From the IMG/VR virus record IMGVR_UViG_3300034355_001172, positions 1 through 24,823 of that record: a stretch of 24,823 nucleotides of DNA. One strand, written 5' to 3'. A program made the translations under genes and the position numbers. The stretch comes from a virus. Each line of letters starts with the position of its first letter. Position 1 is the first letter of the stretch. A model generated the notes under the pieces. The model ran no database searches. It saw only the letters and a list, made by a program, of their open reading frames with translations, and was not told the DNA's origin. Positions 914-13,610 of the stretch are shown here, piece after piece.

Positions 914-1117
914 ATGGGCGAGCTCGGCGCGCACACTGCTCACATATTCGAAAAGTGGAGACCGTCGAACCCCAAGCCAAGGCCCATCGTCGGCAAGCCG
1001 AACCCGTTCATCAAGGAATCGGTTAACGCGTTTGCAAAGGGCGAAATCACACGTGAAGAATTATCATACAGACTGAGGACGGGGCATGCAAAAGGGGATC
1101 ATTCGCATTGGGGCTAG
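914..1117 (+). CDS. Hypothetical protein (67 aa; 90 aa if started at 845)
   Basis: Two starts are possible. ATG 914 follows the previous stop by seven bases and has AGGA at 905-908. ATG 845 would add 23 basic residues but overlap the previous gene by 62 bases, although AAGGGGA at about 830-836 is well spaced for it. The shorter form is preferred because its overlap fits the local pattern. The product is rich in Pro, Lys and Arg in the middle ([11 protein letters not shown]), followed by a predicted helical end. No family is recognised. Its 3' end overlaps the DnaA-like gene by 32 bases, so the two are probably translated from one message. Confidence 0.5.
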
Positions 1118-1493
1118 GATCGTGCTCAAGGCCGCCTGCCAATATTACAAGTGCACCAAAGAGGAGTTCATCAAGCCTCACACTCAGAGCCGGGTGCGAC
1201 AGCGTCAAGCGGCGTTCTACGTGGCCCGCATTTTAACGCAAGACTCGTTGCCGCAAATCGGCCGGGTGTTTGGCAAGGACCACACGACGGTCTTGCACAA
1301 CGTCAGAATGGCGCGAATGTGGATAGCCGTGGATGAACGGTTTAGTAAGGACGTGTACCGGCTCGAGCGCCTTACACAGGAGATCGCACAGGACGAGTTA
1401 TCCAACATATTGCAATGGACTAGCCCAACATGTTATAACGTCCAAGATCGTGCCCAAGTAGAGGTAAGCAATGGCGAGCGGCGACTGGATTAA
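1086..1493 (+). CDS. DnaA domain IV-like DNA-binding protein
   Basis: The 135-aa product aligns by eye with the C-terminal helix-turn-helix domain (domain IV) of the replication initiator DnaA. It has an N-terminal helix ending [10 protein letters not shown] (19-28), then [14 protein letters not shown] with [10 protein letters not shown] (38-63), and the DnaA signature [10 protein letters not shown] (65-74). The AAA+ ATPase and the other DnaA domains are missing. In DnaA this domain contacts the DnaA box (consensus TTATCCACA). A stand-alone copy in a phage replication region suggests recognition of an origin, or competition with host DnaA. That role is inference; the domain call is strong. 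Residues after about 85 show no known domain. The 3' end overlaps the next gene by 23 bases. Confidence 0.85.
1410..1439 (+). promoter_or_regulatory. Candidate sigma70-type promoter P1
   Basis: TTGCAA (1410-1415) and TATAAC (1434-1439) are separated by 18 bases, with TGT immediately before the -10. It lies inside the end of the DnaA-like gene and 31 bases before the ATG at 1471. The -10 region matches the elements before 6798, 9233 and 11195. A near-consensus DnaA box, TTATCCAAC, lies just upstream at 1398-1406. Confidence 0.45.
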
Positions 1494-1785
1494 AGACCTT
1501 CTTCAAACCTCGGTGTATGAGGGCGCTGGTCGCAAACGCAAGGTCAGCTTCGACCGCGTGTTCGAAGTGGCCCTGCTTAACGGAGGCGACGAGTCGGTGG
1601 AGCGCATGCGCGAGATGCGCCAACTCGGAGACCTGACTGCTGGTCAGGCGGTCATGATATTGAGCAATCTTCTGCGAGGGGCTGCGCGGAAGAACAGGGG
1701 CGTCAAGACGTTGGACCACAAGGGCAAGGTTCGTACGGTTGACGCCCCACCGGAATGGCTGCGCCACTATGGCATAGCAGCCTGA
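1471..1785 (+). CDS. Hypothetical protein (104 aa)
   Basis: This 104-aa protein has a Lys/Arg-rich patch ([10 protein letters not shown], about 20-29), helical segments, and a second basic stretch (ARKNRGVKT). GAGG at 1460-1463 serves as ribosome binding site for ATG 1471. The gene overlaps the DnaA-like gene by 23 bases but has its own promoter candidate at 1410-1439. Composition is compatible with nucleic-acid binding, but I see no recognisable fold. It is the last gene before the 220-base gap that holds a strong hairpin, so it probably ends an early transcription unit. Confidence 0.6.
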
Positions 1786-1874: not shown

Positions 1875-1920
1875 GATGGCGTGATGTGGTTCGATTGGTC
1901 TCCTGCCGCGTCACGCCATC
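1875..1920 (+). terminator. Strong RNA hairpin, probable terminator or leader structure
   Basis: A perfect 10-base inverted repeat (GATGGCGTGA at 1875-1884, TCACGCCATC at 1911-1920) extends inward to a 16-pair stem. The three inner non-identities at 1885, 1887 and 1890 are all U opposite G in the + strand RNA, leaving a 14-base loop (1891-1904). It is followed only by GTCGTATTTG, so there is no clean U-tract. It could be a weak intrinsic terminator, or a processing or regulatory structure ahead of the next unit. The rest of the gap (1786-2005) holds a 6-base inverted repeat TACGTT/AACGTA at 1788-1793 and 1816-1821, plus promoter P5. Confidence 0.55.
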
Positions 1921-2564: not shown

Positions 2565-3392
2565 ATGGCTAATAAGAACGCGGTTGCAGAGGTCAAGGAC
2601 GGCGGTGTGCCGGCTTATCTCGCGGGCTACAAGGGCCCGGCCACCAACACGATGATGGAGAACGAGGACCGCATCGTCCCTCGCATGAAGCTGTTGCAGG
2701 CGATTTCGCCCGAGCTCAAGAGCTTCAATGAGGCGAAAGAAGGCGTCTTTTGGCACTCCATCCTCAATGAGTCGTTGGGTTCGGAGGTGCGCTTCGCCGT
2801 CATCATGGCGCGCAAATCGTACGTCCTGTTCGCCCCGCGCGGCGACGACCGCATGATCTTGGCCCGCTCTGCCGACGGCAAGACGTGGGACCGCCCGAAT
2901 GAGTCCTTCGAGGTGAAGATCAAAGGCTACGCCAAGCCCATCGAGTGGAACACGAAAGGTAGCGTCGTGGAGTCGGGTCTGGCCAATTTCGGCTCGTCCA
3001 TCCCCGGTGATCCGCAGTCGCCGCCGGCCGCTACGTTGGTCTACGAGTATCTGGTTTACTTGCCGGATTATCCGGACTGCAGCCCGGCCCTGATTTCGCT
3101 GAGCCGCAGCGGCATCAAGCGGGGTAAGGACCTGAACTCCAAAATCTCGCTGCGCGCGGGATCGGTGCCTCAGTTCGCCCAGCTGTACAAGGCGGTGGTG
3201 ACGAGCGAGCAGAGCGCTGAAGGTGGCTACAACGGTTGGTCGTTCAAGTCGGACGGCGTCGCTGACGAGGCTACCTTCAATACGGTTCTGGCGCTGGCGA
3301 AGAGCTTCGAAACGACGAGCTACCGCGCGTCTGACGAAGACATGAGCGACGAGGCGACGGCCGCTCCGGCGGATTCCGGCGGCGCGTACTAA
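2565..3392 (+). CDS. Likely ssDNA-binding/recombination-associated phage protein
   Basis: The product is 275 aa. A globular, beta-rich core (about 30-230) is followed by a flexible acidic end (ASDEDMSDEATAAP) of the sort that recruits partners in ssDNA-binding proteins such as T7 gp2.5 and bacterial SSB. The region LQAISPELKSF with VFWHSILNES resembles phage proteins commonly annotated as ssDNA-binding or recombination-associated, but I cannot confirm homology here. AGAGGAG upstream of ATG 2565 is a good ribosome binding site. The neighbours are a coiled-coil protein before and the DNA polymerase after. In this phage it would act on Z-containing DNA during replication, if the role is right. 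Confidence 0.65.
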   Translation: MANKNAVAEVKDGGVPAYLAGYKGPATNTMMENEDRIVPRMKLLQAISPELKSFNEAKEGVFWHSILNESLGSEVRFAVIMARKSYVLFAPRGDDRMILARSADGKTWDRPNESFEVKIKGYAKPIEWNTKGSVVESGLANFGSSIPGDPQSPPAATLVYEYLVYLPDYPDCSPALISLSRSGIKRGKDLNSKISLRAGSVPQFAQLYKAVVTSEQSAEGGYNGWSFKSDGVADEATFNTVLALAKSFETTSYRASDEDMSDEATAAPADSGGAY

Positions 3393-3403
3393 GAGACCGC
3401 GTG

Positions 3404-3460
3404 GCCCCGGCGATACGGGGCATTCCTCCCTCAACTGTCGGGGCTAGATGGAGAGCCCCG
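3404..3460 (+). terminator. Tandem GC-rich hairpins, terminator or attenuator
   Basis: Hairpin 1 is GCCCCG (3404-3409) with CGGGGC (3416-3421). Hairpin 2 is CGGGGCT (3439-3445) with AGCCCCG (3454-3460), followed by GCCCTTTT. The arms are interchangeable: the right arm of hairpin 1 can pair with the right arm of hairpin 2, and the left arms can also pair. Hairpin 2 with its short U run looks like a leaky intrinsic terminator between the abundant ssDNA-binding-like protein and the polymerase unit. Confidence 0.5.
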
Positions 3461-3481
3461 GCCCTTTTGGAGCACCAGATT

Positions 3482-3697
3482 ATGGCCAAGCGCCTCACCT
3501 ATATTCAGAACTATGATGGCAACCGTGGATGGGTCCTAGAGCCGTTCACCGACGAAGACCACAAGTCCGGCGACTACATTTTCCTTTGCCAGCACTCGGA
3601 TGGCAACGCCACCGAGCTTGACATCGTCAAGATTCCTCGTCACCTGTGGGATAAGCTGGTGAATGAAGTGAACGAGAAGATGAAGGACTTCAAATGA
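3482..3697 (+). CDS. Hypothetical small protein before dpoZ (71 aa)
   Basis: This 71-aa protein begins MAKRLTYIQNYDGN. A longer in-frame reading from GTG 3401 would run through the two hairpins, so ATG 3482 is preferred, with GGAG at 3469-3472 as ribosome binding site. The sequence alternates beta-like segments with an acidic patch (FTDEDHKSGDY) and ends in a Lys/Glu-rich helix. Its stop overlaps the polymerase start (ATGA, 3694-3697), so it is probably translated with the polymerase. No family is recognised, so a link to polymerase function is only positional. Confidence 0.65.
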   Translation: MAKRLTYIQNYDGNRGWVLEPFTDEDHKSGDYIFLCQHSDGNATELDIVKIPRHLWDKLVNEVNEKMKDFK

Positions 3698-5568
3698 CTA
3701 CATCACTCGGTGACCGGGTGGATGGGGCTCTGCGCGCTGTCGCAAAGTCTCCCGTCATCGCCTACGACGTAGAGACCAGTGGAGTGGATTGGAGGCGGAA
3801 TGCGGTTGTTGGTTATGTCATTACTGTTGATGAACAGTCTAATTGGTACATCCCCGTGCGCCATGGTGGCGGAGGAAATCTACTCGATGGAGCGCCTCTC
3901 ACCGACGCAGTCGTTCCTCGACCCATGCCCGTCCACCCCTTCGAAGAGGCCCTCGCCCGAGCCTTTTCCGAACGTAACCGACGAGGATACGTTACGGTGG
4001 GCCATAACATTAAGTTCGACGTTCACCTATCCGCTAACCACGGGGTCATGCTGGGACGGAACCTTAACTGTACCCAAATAACCGAGGCCCTGATCGACGA
4101 GTACGCCGGCTCCTACAGCCTCGACGCCTGCTGCAAGCGCCATGGCGTGACGGAGAAGAAGGGCGACGCGCTCTACGCCCACATGGCTCAATTGTTCGGG
4201 GGCGAGCCCGAGCGCAAGATCATGCAGCACTTTTGGCGACTGGCCGGCGACGACGCTGTGGCGGTGGACTACGCCATGGGCGACGGCACGTCTACGCTCG
4301 ACCTGTGGCGCAGTCAGGCCGAAGACGTCACGGCGGAGGACAAGGACGGTAAGACGCTGGAGAACATCTTTCGCCTTGAGAACGAGCTGATATGGACCGT
4401 TTTTCGCCTTGAGCGCATCGGCATGAAGGTGGACGAAGGGCGACTGGATTGGGCGTTCCGGGAGGTCAAGCGCTTGGTGAGCGAGGCCCGCGCCGACGCC
4501 GGCTTCGATGAGTCATTCAACGTCCGGTCCACCTCCGCCGTGAAGGACTGGCTGATCTCGAAAGGCGTCGTGGACTTTCCTCGCACTGAGCCCACCGCTC
4601 GCTTTCCGGACGGCCAGATTTCGATACGAGCGAAATGGCTGGAGGGCCATGCAGTGGGCCAACCAGTCGTGGCGATTCGCAACGCGCTCGATCTGGAGTC
4701 CAAGTTCTTATCACCGCTCAAGGAGCGCCACCTGTTCGAGGGGCGCGTTCACGCGTCGCTGAACCAACTGAGGCAGGACGACTATGGCACCGTCACGGGC
4801 CGTTTTTCGTGTAACGAACCGAACCTTCAGCAAATCTCTAAGCGTAATAAGAAGCTCGGCAAGATCCTTCGTTCGGTGTTCGTGCCGGACGAAGACAAGA
4901 TCCTGTACGAAGCGGATTACAGCCAAGCGGAGCCGCGCACTTTCGCTCATTACACACAGAGTCCCAAGATCATGGAGGGTTACCTCCGAACTCCGTTCGT
5001 GGATATGCACTCGGTGGTGGCGCAGGAATTGGGCGTAGATCGTGGCACCGTTGGCAAGCGCCTGAACATGGGCATGCTTACGGGGCTGGGCCCGACTACT
5101 CTGGCCGAACATATGGAGTGGCCGGTGGCGAGGGCGCGCGAGGTCTGGGACTGGTACATGACTAAGTTCTTTCCAGAGCTCAAGCAGTTCCATGGCAACG
5201 CCAGTAAGATATATAAGAGCCGGGGCTTCGTGCGCACGATGCTCGGCCGGCGTTGCAATCTGAAGGACCCCAAGTTCGCCTACCAAGCGGTGAGCCGGAT
5301 CATTCAGGGCTCGGGTGCCGACATCATCAAGTACAAGCTGCTAGAGGCCGACAAAATGTGCGAGGCCGACGGCGACGAGGTGAACGTCATCATGACCATT
5401 CACGACTCTTTCGTCTTTCAGGCCCCGCCCGAGAAGCAGGAGTTTGTGGACCAACTGATCGCTCGCATGAGCTCGGTTCAAGAGGACCCGTTCAACATGA
5501 GGGTGCCCTTCCTCATGGACGTTGGCAAGGGCGAGAATTGGGCTATCGCATCGTATGGAGACAAGTAA
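3694..5568 (+). CDS. dpoZ: DNA polymerase, family A, DpoZ type, with 3'-5' exonuclease
   Basis: The 624-aa enzyme copies the phage genome. The N-terminal DnaQ-like proofreading domain is intact: Exo I D25 and E27 (AYDVETSG), Exo II N105 and D109 (GHNIKFDV), Exo III Y193 and D197 (YAMGD). The polymerase domain has motif A DYSQAEPR (D408, E413), motif B K455 and G464 (GKRLNMGMLTG), and motif C IHDSF (H570, D571). There is no 5'-nuclease domain. The O-helix positions that are Phe and Tyr in Pol I (762, 766) are Met459 and Thr463 here. In Z-genome phages with PurZ, a polymerase of this family (DpoZ) accepts Z opposite T. The dpoZ name here follows from co-occurrence with purZ, datZ and mazZ. Start ATG 3694 overlaps the previous stop. 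Confidence 0.93.
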   Translation: MTTSLGDRVDGALRAVAKSPVIAYDVETSGVDWRRNAVVGYVITVDEQSNWYIPVRHGGGGNLLDGAPLTDAVVPRPMPVHPFEEALARAFSERNRRGYVTVGHNIKFDVHLSANHGVMLGRNLNCTQITEALIDEYAGSYSLDACCKRHGVTEKKGDALYAHMAQLFGGEPERKIMQHFWRLAGDDAVAVDYAMGDGTSTLDLWRSQAEDVTAEDKDGKTLENIFRLENELIWTVFRLERIGMKVDEGRLDWAFREVKRLVSEARADAGFDESFNVRSTSAVKDWLISKGVVDFPRTEPTARFPDGQISIRAKWLEGHAVGQPVVAIRNALDLESKFLSPLKERHLFEGRVHASLNQLRQDDYGTVTGRFSCNEPNLQQISKRNKKLGKILRSVFVPDEDKILYEADYSQAEPRTFAHYTQSPKIMEGYLRTPFVDMHSVVAQELGVDRGTVGKRLNMGMLTGLGPTTLAEHMEWPVARAREVWDWYMTKFFPELKQFHGNASKIYKSRGFVRTMLGRRCNLKDPKFAYQAVSRIIQGSGADIIKYKLLEADKMCEADGDEVNVIMTIHDSFVFQAPPEKQEFVDQLIARMSSVQEDPFNMRVPFLMDVGKGENWAIASYGDK

Positions 5569-6797: not shown

Positions 6798-7862
6798 ATG
6801 CCATTTAAATTCAGCGCCAGCAGCATCGAAGACGCCTTATATGAAGACGGGTGGTTCGCCAAGGGGGCCCATTTCATCGTGGACGGCCAATACGGCTCGA
6901 CCGGCAAAGGGGCTCTGGCGGCGGTCATCGCCCGCGCCGGCCGACGCGACATCGAAATATACGCCACCAATGCCGGCCCGAATTCGGGTCACACCGCCGT
7001 ATTAGGTGCGGCCAAGATCGTCACCACGCAGTTGCCGGTGGGCGCGGCCGTGGCGAAGCTCCTGCCGGGCCCGCAGTTCGACGTCTACCTTACGGCCGGC
7101 GCGATCATATACCCCAAGATGCTGCAGAAAGAGGTCGAGGAATTTGGCGTCGTGCCGACCATCCACCCGTGCGCGGCCATCATCGAGGCGCACCACGTCG
7201 AGCAGGAGCAGAGCAACGGCTCTTCGAAAGTCGCCGGCACGGCCAAAGGGGTGGGCGCGGCGCTGGCCGACAAGGTCAACAGAGAGGGCAACCTTTGGGG
7301 CCGACAAGACGTCTGGTACGGTTATAGCGGCGTATTGGATCTGGCTAACCGGTGCGTCCTCCACGAGTCAGCGCAGGGGTTTTCACTGGGCGTCAATGAG
7401 GCCCTTTTCGCTCCTCACACAACGAGCCGCGAGTGCACGGTGCAGCAGGCCCTCTCCGACGCCCGCATCCCGCTTAGTCAGGTCCACAAGGTGGCGATGA
7501 CGCTGCGTACGGCACCGATAAGGGTCGGAAATACGCAGGTGGGCTACAGTGGCGATTTCTACGACGACCAGAAAGAGACGTCGTGGGAGGAGCTTGGCCT
7601 TCAGGAGGAGTACACCACCGTCACTAAGCGCGTGCGTCGCGTTTTCACGTGGTCGTGGTCGCAGTTCGTCGACGCGCTGCGCGTCAATGAGCCGGACCTG
7701 CTCAACATTAACTTCATGGACTACCTGAAGAAAGAGGAGCAGGAGCCTTTCGTCCGCGCCGTCATCGCCAAGTATCAATCGATCCTGCCGCACAAAGGCA
7801 TGCCGACGGTGCTTTGCGGATTTGGTCCTGACATCGAGCACATGGGGGTGTGGGTTGACTGA
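6798..7862 (+). CDS. purZ: PurZ, aminoadenylosuccinate synthetase
   Basis: The 354-aa enzyme belongs to the PurA/PurZ family. In PurA the P-loop is GDEGKGK; here residues 33-38 are GSTGKG, so the catalytic Asp is Ser34 and the following Glu is Thr35. This is the accepted signature of PurZ, which uses dGMP rather than IMP and, with aspartate and NTP, makes N6-succino-2-amino-dAMP. The catalytic His is kept (NSGHT, H65). Other family blocks are GTAKGVGAALADK (about 147-159), ESAQGFSL in place of the PurA EGAQG loop, HTTSREC and KRVRRVFTWS. At 354 aa it is shorter than bacterial PurA (about 430), as in phage forms. AGGAGG and promoter P2 precede it. Host PurB and kinases would complete dZTP. Confidence 0.95.
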   Translation: MPFKFSASSIEDALYEDGWFAKGAHFIVDGQYGSTGKGALAAVIARAGRRDIEIYATNAGPNSGHTAVLGAAKIVTTQLPVGAAVAKLLPGPQFDVYLTAGAIIYPKMLQKEVEEFGVVPTIHPCAAIIEAHHVEQEQSNGSSKVAGTAKGVGAALADKVNREGNLWGRQDVWYGYSGVLDLANRCVLHESAQGFSLGVNEALFAPHTTSRECTVQQALSDARIPLSQVHKVAMTLRTAPIRVGNTQVGYSGDFYDDQKETSWEELGLQEEYTTVTKRVRRVFTWSWSQFVDALRVNEPDLLNINFMDYLKKEEQEPFVRAVIAKYQSILPHKGMPTVLCGFGPDIEHMGVWVD

Positions 7863-7875
7863 CACAGACGAATTG

Positions 7876-8064
7876 ATGGTAAAGGGCGTCCCTATATGGG
7901 TGCTGGATCCTGAGGCGAACATCACCGTTCGCGAAATGGCGGAGATCCTACGGGGTCTTCGCATTATGGCTAAAGGTGAAAAGACGCTGGAGCGGTTTCA
8001 CCGCTCTACGCATCGCCATTTTAAGAGGATGAACAATGGAGACCAAGCTAATGATGTACAGTGA
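7876..8064 (+). CDS. Small unknown protein between purZ and mazZ (62 aa)
   Basis: From ATG 7876 this is a 62-aa basic protein. TTG 7855, whose frame overlaps the purZ stop, would add seven residues, and TTG 7822 is less likely. No start has a strong ribosome binding site, so translation may depend on coupling with purZ. The middle (ITVREMAEILRGLRIMAKG) looks helical, followed by a His/Arg-rich segment (RFHRSTHRHFKRM). It overlaps mazZ by 29 bases. I recognise no family. Its place inside the Z cassette makes it a candidate accessory gene, but no function is visible. Confidence 0.5.
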   Translation: MVKGVPIWVLDPEANITVREMAEILRGLRIMAKGEKTLERFHRSTHRHFKRMNNGDQANDVQ

Positions 8065-8365
8065 AAAAGACCAAAAAGCCGCTCAAGCTATAGTAGACGC
8101 CATCGATGCAGGAAATGTGGCCGCCATGGTGCGGCCCGTTCTGGCTGATTTTGCCGTTTTGATGGAGGCCAAGCTTCAGAAGAACGACCACAAAACCAGT
8201 TGGACTAACCTGCCGGTCGAGGCTCTTTTTCGAATGCTGACGCTGGAGATCGAGGAGTTCAAGGTGGCACACGAATTCCTCGGACCCGACGAGGCGATGA
8301 AAGAACTGGTGGACGTCGCCAACTATTGTATGATCCTTCACGACCGACTGAAGAAGCTGAAATGA
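8036..8365 (+). CDS. mazZ: MazZ, MazG-like (d)GTP pyrophosphohydrolase
   Basis: The 109-aa all-helical protein has the MazG-family metal motif: ExxE at E71-E74 (LEIEEF) and ExxD at E90-D93 (ELVDVANY). In Z-genome phages a MazG-type enzyme, MazZ, hydrolyses dGTP (and GTP) to dGMP and pyrophosphate, supplying the PurZ substrate. That assignment here comes from family plus position between purZ and datZ; the sequence itself proves only the MazG fold. AGAGG about eight bases before ATG 8036 supports the start. The stop overlaps the next ATG (ATGA, 8362-8365). A general housekeeping MazG role is the alternative. Confidence 0.87.
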   Translation: METKLMMYSEKDQKAAQAIVDAIDAGNVAAMVRPVLADFAVLMEAKLQKNDHKTSWTNLPVEALFRMLTLEIEEFKVAHEFLGPDEAMKELVDVANYCMILHDRLKKLK

Positions 8366-8626: not shown

Positions 8627-9190
8627 ATGGATGACACTTGGTTGCTGGGGCGCTTCGAGCGCAATCTGGCTGACATTCGCCGCTGGTCAATCGTGCGCAC
8701 GACGCGCGAGCAGTCGGTGGTGGAGCACTCTTTTTACGTGGCCCTGATGGTGCCGCGCCTGCTGCGCCAGTATGGCTTCGAAGACCCGCAAATGTTGCTC
8801 GACGCCACGCAATACGCGCTGCGCCATGATATGAGCGAGGTCCTGACGGGCGACATCGCCACGCCTATCAAAAAGCGCTTGCCTGAGGGGGCGTTCACCA
8901 TGATGGAGATGGAATTCGGCTTTCCACCGGAGGAGATCGACCCAATCGTCCAGCAGGCGGTGAAGGTGATCGACCTTTTCGAAGCGGCCGCCTTTTTGGC
9001 CGAGGAGATCGCAATTGGCAACTCCCGCGTCGTAGACGTGCAACGCGTCATCAAGTACAAGCTCGAAAAGGCGTGCGTGGCGTTCGAAAAAGCGGTTGGC
9101 AAAAGCGACGGTCTGTATCGCGTGATGAGCACCGTATTATACCACTTGCAGTACTCCATGGTCGATCCGCTGGAGCCAGACTTGTCCTGA
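8627..9190 (+). CDS. datZ: DatZ, HD-domain dATP triphosphohydrolase
   Basis: This 187-aa HD phosphohydrolase is close in layout to E. coli YfbR. Metal ligands are H34 (VVEHSFYVA), H67-D68 (ALRHDMSEVLTGD) and D116 (VKVIDLFEAA); E71 and D76 are also in place. The length and spacing match DatZ of Z-genome phages, which strips dATP to deoxyadenosine so that A is kept out of phage DNA. The segment RRWSIVR places W20 and I22 near the start; as I recall, in cyanophage S-2L DatZ equivalent residues shape the base pocket that excludes 2-amino purines. A general 5'-nucleotidase is the alternative, but beside purZ and mazZ DatZ is much more likely. Confidence 0.93.
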   Translation: MDDTWLLGRFERNLADIRRWSIVRTTREQSVVEHSFYVALMVPRLLRQYGFEDPQMLLDATQYALRHDMSEVLTGDIATPIKKRLPEGAFTMMEMEFGFPPEEIDPIVQQAVKVIDLFEAAAFLAEEIAIGNSRVVDVQRVIKYKLEKACVAFEKAVGKSDGLYRVMSTVLYHLQYSMVDPLEPDLS

Positions 9191-12589: not shown

Positions 12590-13186
12590 GTGTCTCAATT
12601 AAGCGCTCAAAGCATCAAGAAGCTGTGCCAACCGACCAAATGGTGCGGATTGATGAAGCAACAACCGATGATCGTCCCATTCGTGGGTGAGAAAACGGTG
12701 GTCAATGGCAAAAGTTATGGCCTGTCTGCCGCCAGTTATGACGTTCGCATTGCGCACGACGTCATACTTGGGCCCGCCCCGTCGTACGTTTTGCGTAATA
12801 TGTTACAATACAGCAAAGGCATGCCAGTGGCTGGCACCATAGAAGGGTGGCGCGACAATATGAAGGGCTACCCTCCAAATCACGCTCTGGCGCACACGAT
12901 TGAGGACTTTTACATTCCGCACAACGTCGTTGGATATGTGTGCGACAAGTCCACCTATGCCCGCATTTTCGTTTCAGCGTTCAACACTCTTTTCGACCCC
13001 GGATTCTGCGGTAACGCCACGCTGGAGCTCGTGAACCTAAGCGACAAGATCGTCAGCATCAAAGCCGGCGACCCTATTTGCCAATTCACGTTCCACTGGC
13101 TCGACCGCAAAACAGATAGGCCCTACAATGGCAAGTACCAGAACCAAACCAAAGCCGCACACCCCGCAAGGTTTGAAGGCGTCTGA
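12590..13186 (+). CDS. dcd: dCTP deaminase-like (DCD/dUTPase family) enzyme
   Basis: GTG 12590 is the start, set by a perfect AGGAGG six bases upstream. The 198-aa protein follows the DCD/DUT trimer fold: SAASYDVR (47-53), IPHNVVGYVCDKSTYAR (109-125), FDPGFCGNATLELVNL (135-150) and AGDPICQFTF (159-168). S121, R125 and E146 match the Ser, Arg and Glu used by E. coli dCTP deaminase, so deamination of dCTP to dUTP is likely. A dUTPase activity cannot be excluded. It would feed dTTP synthesis. DCD-like enzymes are also found in phages with altered bases, so a modified substrate is possible. The 3' end overlaps the GcrA-like gene by 59 bases. Confidence 0.85.
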   Translation: MSQLSAQSIKKLCQPTKWCGLMKQQPMIVPFVGEKTVVNGKSYGLSAASYDVRIAHDVILGPAPSYVLRNMLQYSKGMPVAGTIEGWRDNMKGYPPNHALAHTIEDFYIPHNVVGYVCDKSTYARIFVSAFNTLFDPGFCGNATLELVNLSDKIVSIKAGDPICQFTFHWLDRKTDRPYNGKYQNQTKAAHPARFEGV

Positions 13187-13610
13187 CTTCAAAGATAAGA
13201 TCCGCGACGACATTAATGCCGGCCGCACGTATGGCGAAATAGCCGACGAAATCGGCATAAGTCGCAGTTCTGTGGCCGGAATGGTGGGCCGACTCAAAGT
13301 ATTGGGCGAAATCACCTACACAAACCCGGCAAAGAGCATGGGCAAACGCTTGGCCCCTGCAAAACGCGTGACGGCGCTTAGACGTCCGCCAAAAGTGGTT
13401 GTGGACGTCAGTTCGATCACGCCACTGGAGGTGGACCTTTTGGATCTTGGACATCGTCAGTGTAGGTATCCTGTTCGCAGTCACGGATCAAGGCATTGGT
13501 TCTGTGGTTTGCCGACTGACGAGATGGCTTCGTATTGCTCAGCACACGACCACATCACGCGCGTTCCGTCTAAGATAAACATTAAAAAGACCGGCCATTA
13601 TAGGGGATGA
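13128..13610 (+). CDS. GcrA-like transcriptional regulator
   Basis: The 160-aa protein has an N-terminal helix-turn-helix (RTYGEIADEIGISRSSV, 33-49, then GMVGRL), a variable basic linker, and the GcrA C-terminal block LLDLGHRQCRYPV with FCG and YCSAH. C112, C126, C137 and H140 are in the conserved spacing. GcrA of Alphaproteobacteria binds sigma70-RNA polymerase and acts at promoters carrying N6-methyladenine in GANTC. A phage version would be expected to steer host or phage transcription. The start is uncertain: ATG 13128 has no strong ribosome binding site and overlaps dcd; TTG 13171 is the alternative. The stop overlaps the lipoprotein start. Confidence 0.85.
   Translation: MASTRTKPKPHTPQGLKASDFKDKIRDDINAGRTYGEIADEIGISRSSVAGMVGRLKVLGEITYTNPAKSMGKRLAPAKRVTALRRPPKVVVDVSSITPLEVDLLDLGHRQCRYPVRSHGSRHWFCGLPTDEMASYCSAHDHITRVPSKINIKKTGHYRG

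Follow-up and report, generated by a model that had tools for sequence, protein, structure and literature searches.

A stand-alone DnaA domain IV protein of a purZ phage fragment: a possible transcription regulator with histidine in place of the usual minor-groove arginine

The window, meaning the whole stretch of DNA analysed, is a 24.8-kb virus fragment. An open reading frame on the plus strand (1086..1493), beginning with ATG, encodes a stand-alone DnaA domain IV protein of 135 amino acids. The gene belongs to a run of small overlapping ORFs, and its codon-position GC (0.56/0.38/0.67) is like that of the adjoining genes. Residues 13–74 match PF08299 (Bac_DnaA_C) with 58.9 bits (E 4.9e-16; cut-off 31.5; profile positions 4–67 of 69); on the DNA the match covers 1122..1307 (+) with 60 bits. 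When it is withheld from the profile, the window protein scores 68.6 bits, and none of 2000 shuffled versions of it exceeds 9.9 bits. The recognition helix opens with DHTTVLH (1278..1298, +; E. coli residues 433–439), canonical by sequence and alignment. Profile searches of the protein found no AAA+/ATPase domain and no DnaA N-terminal domain. The full-length DnaA profile TIGR00362 gives 56.9 bits, where 343.9 would be needed; PF08299 alone passes.

The solved chains nearest in sequence are DnaA domain IV of M. tuberculosis and E. coli (3pvp and 1j1v). The AlphaFold2 model, made from an alignment of the window protein with 31 viral relatives, has a mean pLDDT of 87.7 and is all helical over residues 11–110 (block means 89–98). 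Foldseek matches this predicted model to 3pvp (TM 0.92 by target, rmsd 1.2 Å) and to 1j1v (TM 0.82 by target, rmsd 1.3 Å); the training of AlphaFold2 probably included these DnaA folds, so the match counts as agreement and not as independent proof. Past the domain the model predicts a C-terminal helix at residues 84–111, then a low-confidence tail. The protein is thus a genuine DnaA domain IV, and very probably a DNA binder. The preliminary description, in which only the DNA-binding domain of DnaA is encoded and the DHTTVLH signature is present, is borne out by the profile match, the fold and the lack of an AAA+ domain.

Bacterial DnaA domain IV shares the fold and the DHTTVLH helix with the window protein, to which the DnaA proteins of E. 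coli and Sinorhizobium are 31–35% identical. Unlike bacterial DnaA, the window protein is devoid of the ATPase and N-terminal domains, has histidine at the position of R399 and a shorter basic loop, and carries the extra C-terminal helix and tail. A family tree from 73 columns did not yield its place.

The next gene (1471..1785, +) has no family match and is weakly like gp23 of Ochrobactrum phage OH (phmmer E 6e-4). An inverted repeat, possibly a terminator, lies at 1875..1920 (+) in the non-coding gap 3' of the gene run. A hairpin of another sequence occupies the corresponding gap of phage OH (L012 11477-11508), and in both phages the repeat lies between the gp23-like and Gam-like genes; the two are likely terminators or regulatory hairpins. 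A search against RNA families gave no match. From the gp23-like gene up to the helicase, the genes of the window are arranged as in OH, a purZ phage, and among the listed phages that of OH is the purZ nearest to the window's own.

Candidate genes of 2-aminoadenine (Z) metabolism follow on the plus strand. They encode a DpoZ-like DNA polymerase A (3694..5568; NF038380 310 bits, below the cut-off of 500), a PurZ-like 2-amino adenylosuccinate synthetase (6798..7862; phrog_1211 E 4e-56; NF038379 214.5 bits, below the cut-off of 300) and a DatZ-like dATP triphosphohydrolase (8627..9190; phrog_7076 E 1.5e-25). Since PurZ and DpoZ stay under their NCBIfam cut-offs, a Z genome is presumed for this phage. 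At the place of the OH pyrophosphohydrolase gp33 lies a frame for a small protein (8036-8365, +; phmmer E 4e-5, no Pfam family over cut-off), possibly a diverged MazZ. Further downstream, at 13128..13610 (+), is a GcrA homologue of the sigma-70 cofactor family (PF07750 58.8 bits against a cut-off of 26.9), a possible partner of the DnaA domain IV protein. It is adjoined by a dCTP deaminase-like protein (12590-13186, +; PF22769 58.5 bits). Gene spacing and GC of the window show no sign of a chimeric contig.

E. coli DnaA recognizes TnCACA in the major groove through a helix that begins at residue 434, and 5'-TTA-3' in the minor groove through Arg399; R399A is impaired in box binding (PMC5742627). 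All seven major-groove positions (P423, D433, H434, T435, T436, L438, H439) are identical in the window protein and E. coli. The usual, not universal, minor-groove arginine is absent; by alignment its place is taken by His32 (codon at 1179..1181, +). In most relatives the basic loop leading into helix 3 has one residue more than here. Of the other sequences that align at position 399, some cellular DnaA included, 116 of 121 have arginine; the figure is 70 of 75 once the set is made non-redundant at 80% identity. The count of 121 omits L001, which is the window's own copy, and a single truncated row, and the set is biased, the main scan having required a canonical helix. The exceptions besides the window are two viral sequences with Q, one with H (L176) and one with K, and a GafY candidate with S, whose loop alignment is unsure. 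Arginine is kept in the relatives L132, L134, L136, L158, L144 and L131. Its loss in the sole purZ-phage copy gives a Fisher p of 0.079, on one sequence.

Stand-alone DnaA domain IV proteins are an already known kind, common in phages. Among the 599 pattern matches listed, at least 449 encode relatives of the query alignment. The DnaA ATPase domain is present in 12 and absent in 40 of the 52 viral proteins scanned (52 of 60 called genes, eight near-duplicate or truncated ones being left out; 20 of 80 loci had no gene call). Like the window, the Bradyrhizobium phages ppBeUSDA76-2 and ppBjS10J-1, pelagiphages and many IMG/VR contigs encode domain IV alone with a canonical helix. The window differs from the records of these other phage proteins in having a PurZ-like gene: PurZ was found in none of 84 such virus records, many of them fragments. 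A local PurZ control scan was positive for 80 of 80 purZ loci and for none of the DnaA domain IV loci. The survey of purZ phages for such proteins, as proposed in the preliminary description, returned the window as the only copy. No PF08299 match over cut-off occurs in 130 other purZ contigs (80 + 50, many of them fragments), the scan of 50 having detected the window itself as its positive control, nor in four named purZ phages, OH among them. A PF08299 hint in OH (13.9 bits) was dropped, the protein concerned matching DUF2786/DUF7168.

DnaA boxes are not enriched on the phage DNA. The window contains no exact TTATNCACA, 10 sites of TTATNCACA with at most one mismatch against 11.45 expected, and 44 sites of TTATCCACA with at most two mismatches against 43 expected. 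Across 97 loci of phages with DnaA domain IV proteins, exact boxes number 18 against 17.3 expected. In a published genome scan of alphaproteobacterial phages, DnaA sites likewise showed no positional asymmetry (PMC9437464). With no excess in the window or in the relatives' loci, these phages do not display canonical box clusters. The proposal that the protein marks a phage origin made of canonical DnaA boxes is thereby rejected, for the window and for the relatives as a group. A local surplus of TTATNCACA with two mismatches near the gene (nine within 600 bases, where the mean is 4.2; 8 of 500 shuffles reach nine) was set aside because another stretch has an equal count and about 40 stretches are in play.

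GcrA accompanies part of the family. It is a sigma-70 cofactor whose residues 1–45 bind methylated DNA and whose residues 108–173 bind sigma domain 2 (PMC7403470), and a phage-encoded copy is known from phiCbK (PMC3556154). GcrA scores over cut-off in 10 of 45 other virus records with DnaA domain IV and in 0 of 38 purZ records besides the window (Fisher p 0.0015), in a comparison whose two sets differ in hosts and hold some near-duplicate records. The 45 records come from 90 loci, picked by stand-alone size or closeness; the 38 comprise 36 of 80 contigs and two of four named phages, mostly the longer ones, with one further GcrA match under cut-off. A GcrA-like ORF lies within the fetched stretch in 16 of 97 loci, mostly overlapping or adjacent to the DnaA domain IV gene, according to an iterated profile that is possibly generous; when tested against Pfam, nine of ten such ORFs pass and the tenth falls 0.1 bit short. 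In IMG/VR contig L158, a 301-residue frame (3293-4195, +) joins the C-terminal third of GcrA (profile positions 101–147), the stretch where the sigma-binding domain lies (PMC7403470), to a DnaA domain IV. The DnaA part has a canonical helix and is 36% identical to the window protein over 97 columns; in the window, by contrast, GcrA has a gene of its own at a distance of 12 kb. Among alignments of at least 90 columns, those with the highest identity to the window protein include L132, L134, L136, L158 and L144, all linked to GcrA. Among other neighbours, downstream ORFs include DNA methylases (PF01555, 6/77) and GapR (1/77), upstream ORFs HTH_3 regulators (4/70) and GapR (2/70); 77 of 118 downstream and 70 of 112 upstream ORFs were scanned, duplicates and many antisense frames being left out by eye. 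The link of DnaA domain IV with GcrA, seen in neighbouring genes and in a single fusion, suggests that phages of Alphaproteobacteria have taken over at least two parts of their hosts' cell-cycle circuit. GcrA reads N6-methyladenine, which would be missing from Z-DNA, so the phage GcrA may act on host DNA only.

The nearest studied stand-alone protein is GafY (HdaB), grouped with GafA as an alphaproteobacterial activator of gene transfer agents. It is a small DnaA domain IV protein that lacks an ATPase, as does the window protein, for which an alphaproteobacterial setting is presumed. GafY activates gene-transfer-agent promoters and contacts RpoD (PMC11150451, PMC9632790); in the proposal of the authors of PMC9632790 it is not an oriC replication regulator. 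GafY works with GafZ, a DUF6456 protein, whereas no DUF6456 was found in the window, and a GafYZ-type operon was dropped as a candidate after the PF20057 (DUF6456) search of this fragment came back empty. The same family was detected in roseophage RDJL Phi 1 and beside a Shinella DnaA domain IV gene. The GafY candidate of Shinella has a diverged helix, DRTTVGH, and 24% identity to the window protein.

The window protein is best explained, on a tentative footing, as a single-domain DNA-binding transcription regulator derived from DnaA domain IV. It would bind DnaA-box-like sites mainly through its canonical TnCACA-reading helix in the major groove and, once bound, would control transcription at host (cell-cycle) promoters or at the phage's own. 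The host would be alphaproteobacterial, and the phage GcrA would perhaps act alongside. The basis is computed: the fold, the canonical helix, the lack of an ATPase, the GcrA gene of the same genome, and GcrA beside or fused to relatives. DNA binding, RNA polymerase contact, target promoters, timing and host are conjectured from it. Transcription control did not figure among the functions first suggested for the gene; the context favours it, with GcrA in the genome, among neighbours and in a fusion, and with GafY as precedent. The PF08299 match and fold, the seven canonical positions and the lack of box clusters on phage DNA also speak for it. Points against it are that the window GcrA gene is 12 kb off and not adjacent, that the neighbours of the DnaA domain IV gene in the window have no known transcription role, that no target motif or promoter was found, that the window, a fragment, has no DUF6456 (GafZ), and that 35 of the 45 relatives' records have no GcrA over cut-off. 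The co-occurrence with GcrA may also reflect alphaproteobacterial hosts alone.

The canonical helix is equally needed by a competitor of host DnaA, and the protein could be such a dominant-negative competitor, occupying the DnaA boxes of the host origin and of promoters under DnaA control, blocking ATP-DnaA assembly and halting host replication during infection. Domain IV alone, devoid of an ATPase and retaining the TnCACA-reading helix, would suit this role, and since boxes do not stand out on the phage DNA, those of the host would be the natural targets. Host-takeover genes often stand in runs of small overlapping ORFs, as this gene does. Repression of host initiation by box occupancy, as first suggested for the gene, is neither borne out nor contradicted, and the competitor role ranks second, as a serious rival that is less likely than transcription control. 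Loss of the minor-groove arginine should weaken binding to canonical boxes, as the defect of R399A in E. coli indicates (PMC5742627), an action of GafY on oriC is argued against (PMC9632790), and fusion or adjacency to GcrA in the relatives is not expected of a plain competitor. A phage origin-binding protein, marking or remodelling the phage replication origin and recruiting the phage replisome, is quite improbable, there being no boxes in the window and no excess in the 97 relatives' loci, and the purZ relatives (the 130 contigs and four phages above) replicating with no DnaA domain IV protein detected. In its favour are the position of the gene, some 2.2 kb 5' of the one for the polymerase, and two bare annotations, 'DNA replication initiation' on the pelagiphage homologues and replisome organizer on the next gene of ctOK67.

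The altered contact bears on how proteins read Z. The amine of 2-aminoadenine (diaminopurine) sits in the minor groove (PMC8599871). Major-groove reading should therefore be indifferent to this 2-amino group, whereas the minor-groove arginine R399 should feel it. The only DnaA domain IV copy found in a purZ phage is, by its sequence, without the very contact that Z should disturb, which is suggestive only. Histidine could serve as a bond acceptor for the amine of Z. The protein might accordingly be a regulator rebuilt for adenine-free DNA, with the helix kept and arginine replaced by histidine, that binds Z-substituted boxes, or boxes in both DNAs, and lets the phage address its own DNA, which host DnaA would bind poorly. 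The arginine's reading of TTA in the groove where the diaminopurine amine sits (PMC8599871) fits this idea, as does the contrast between histidine in the sole purZ-phage copy and arginine in 70 of 75 non-redundant others. It is nonetheless distinctly improbable: the contrast comes from a single sequence (Fisher p 0.079), the arginine is missing from five other non-redundant sequences as well, one of them (viral L176) with histidine, plain loss of specificity explains the change equally, the window contains no boxes, and the Z content of its genome is itself presumed.

In the accessible literature on 2-aminoadenine phages, DnaA, the minor groove of Z-DNA and PurZ, no study of Z-phage proteins that act in transcription or initiation was found. 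How sequence-specific proteins deal with a genome bearing an extra minor-groove amino group on every adenine seems little studied. DnaA domain IV lends itself well to such a test, its DNA-bound structures being solved and its contacts mapped. The natural purZ-phage variant alters the minor-groove contact and leaves the major-groove set canonical, and the Z question is now sharply testable, on one sequence.

NF004687 (PRK06030) was discarded as a marker of GafY: its only matches in two Sinorhizobium records were long frames at the dnaA locus. The Shinella GafY candidate adjoins a DUF6456 (GafZ-type) frame scoring 150 bits. In Sinorhizobium record L125 (1465-2807), a stand-alone DnaA domain IV gene is divergent from that of an S24-type (LexA/cI-like) repressor, an arrangement that recalls the GafY/RogA pair.
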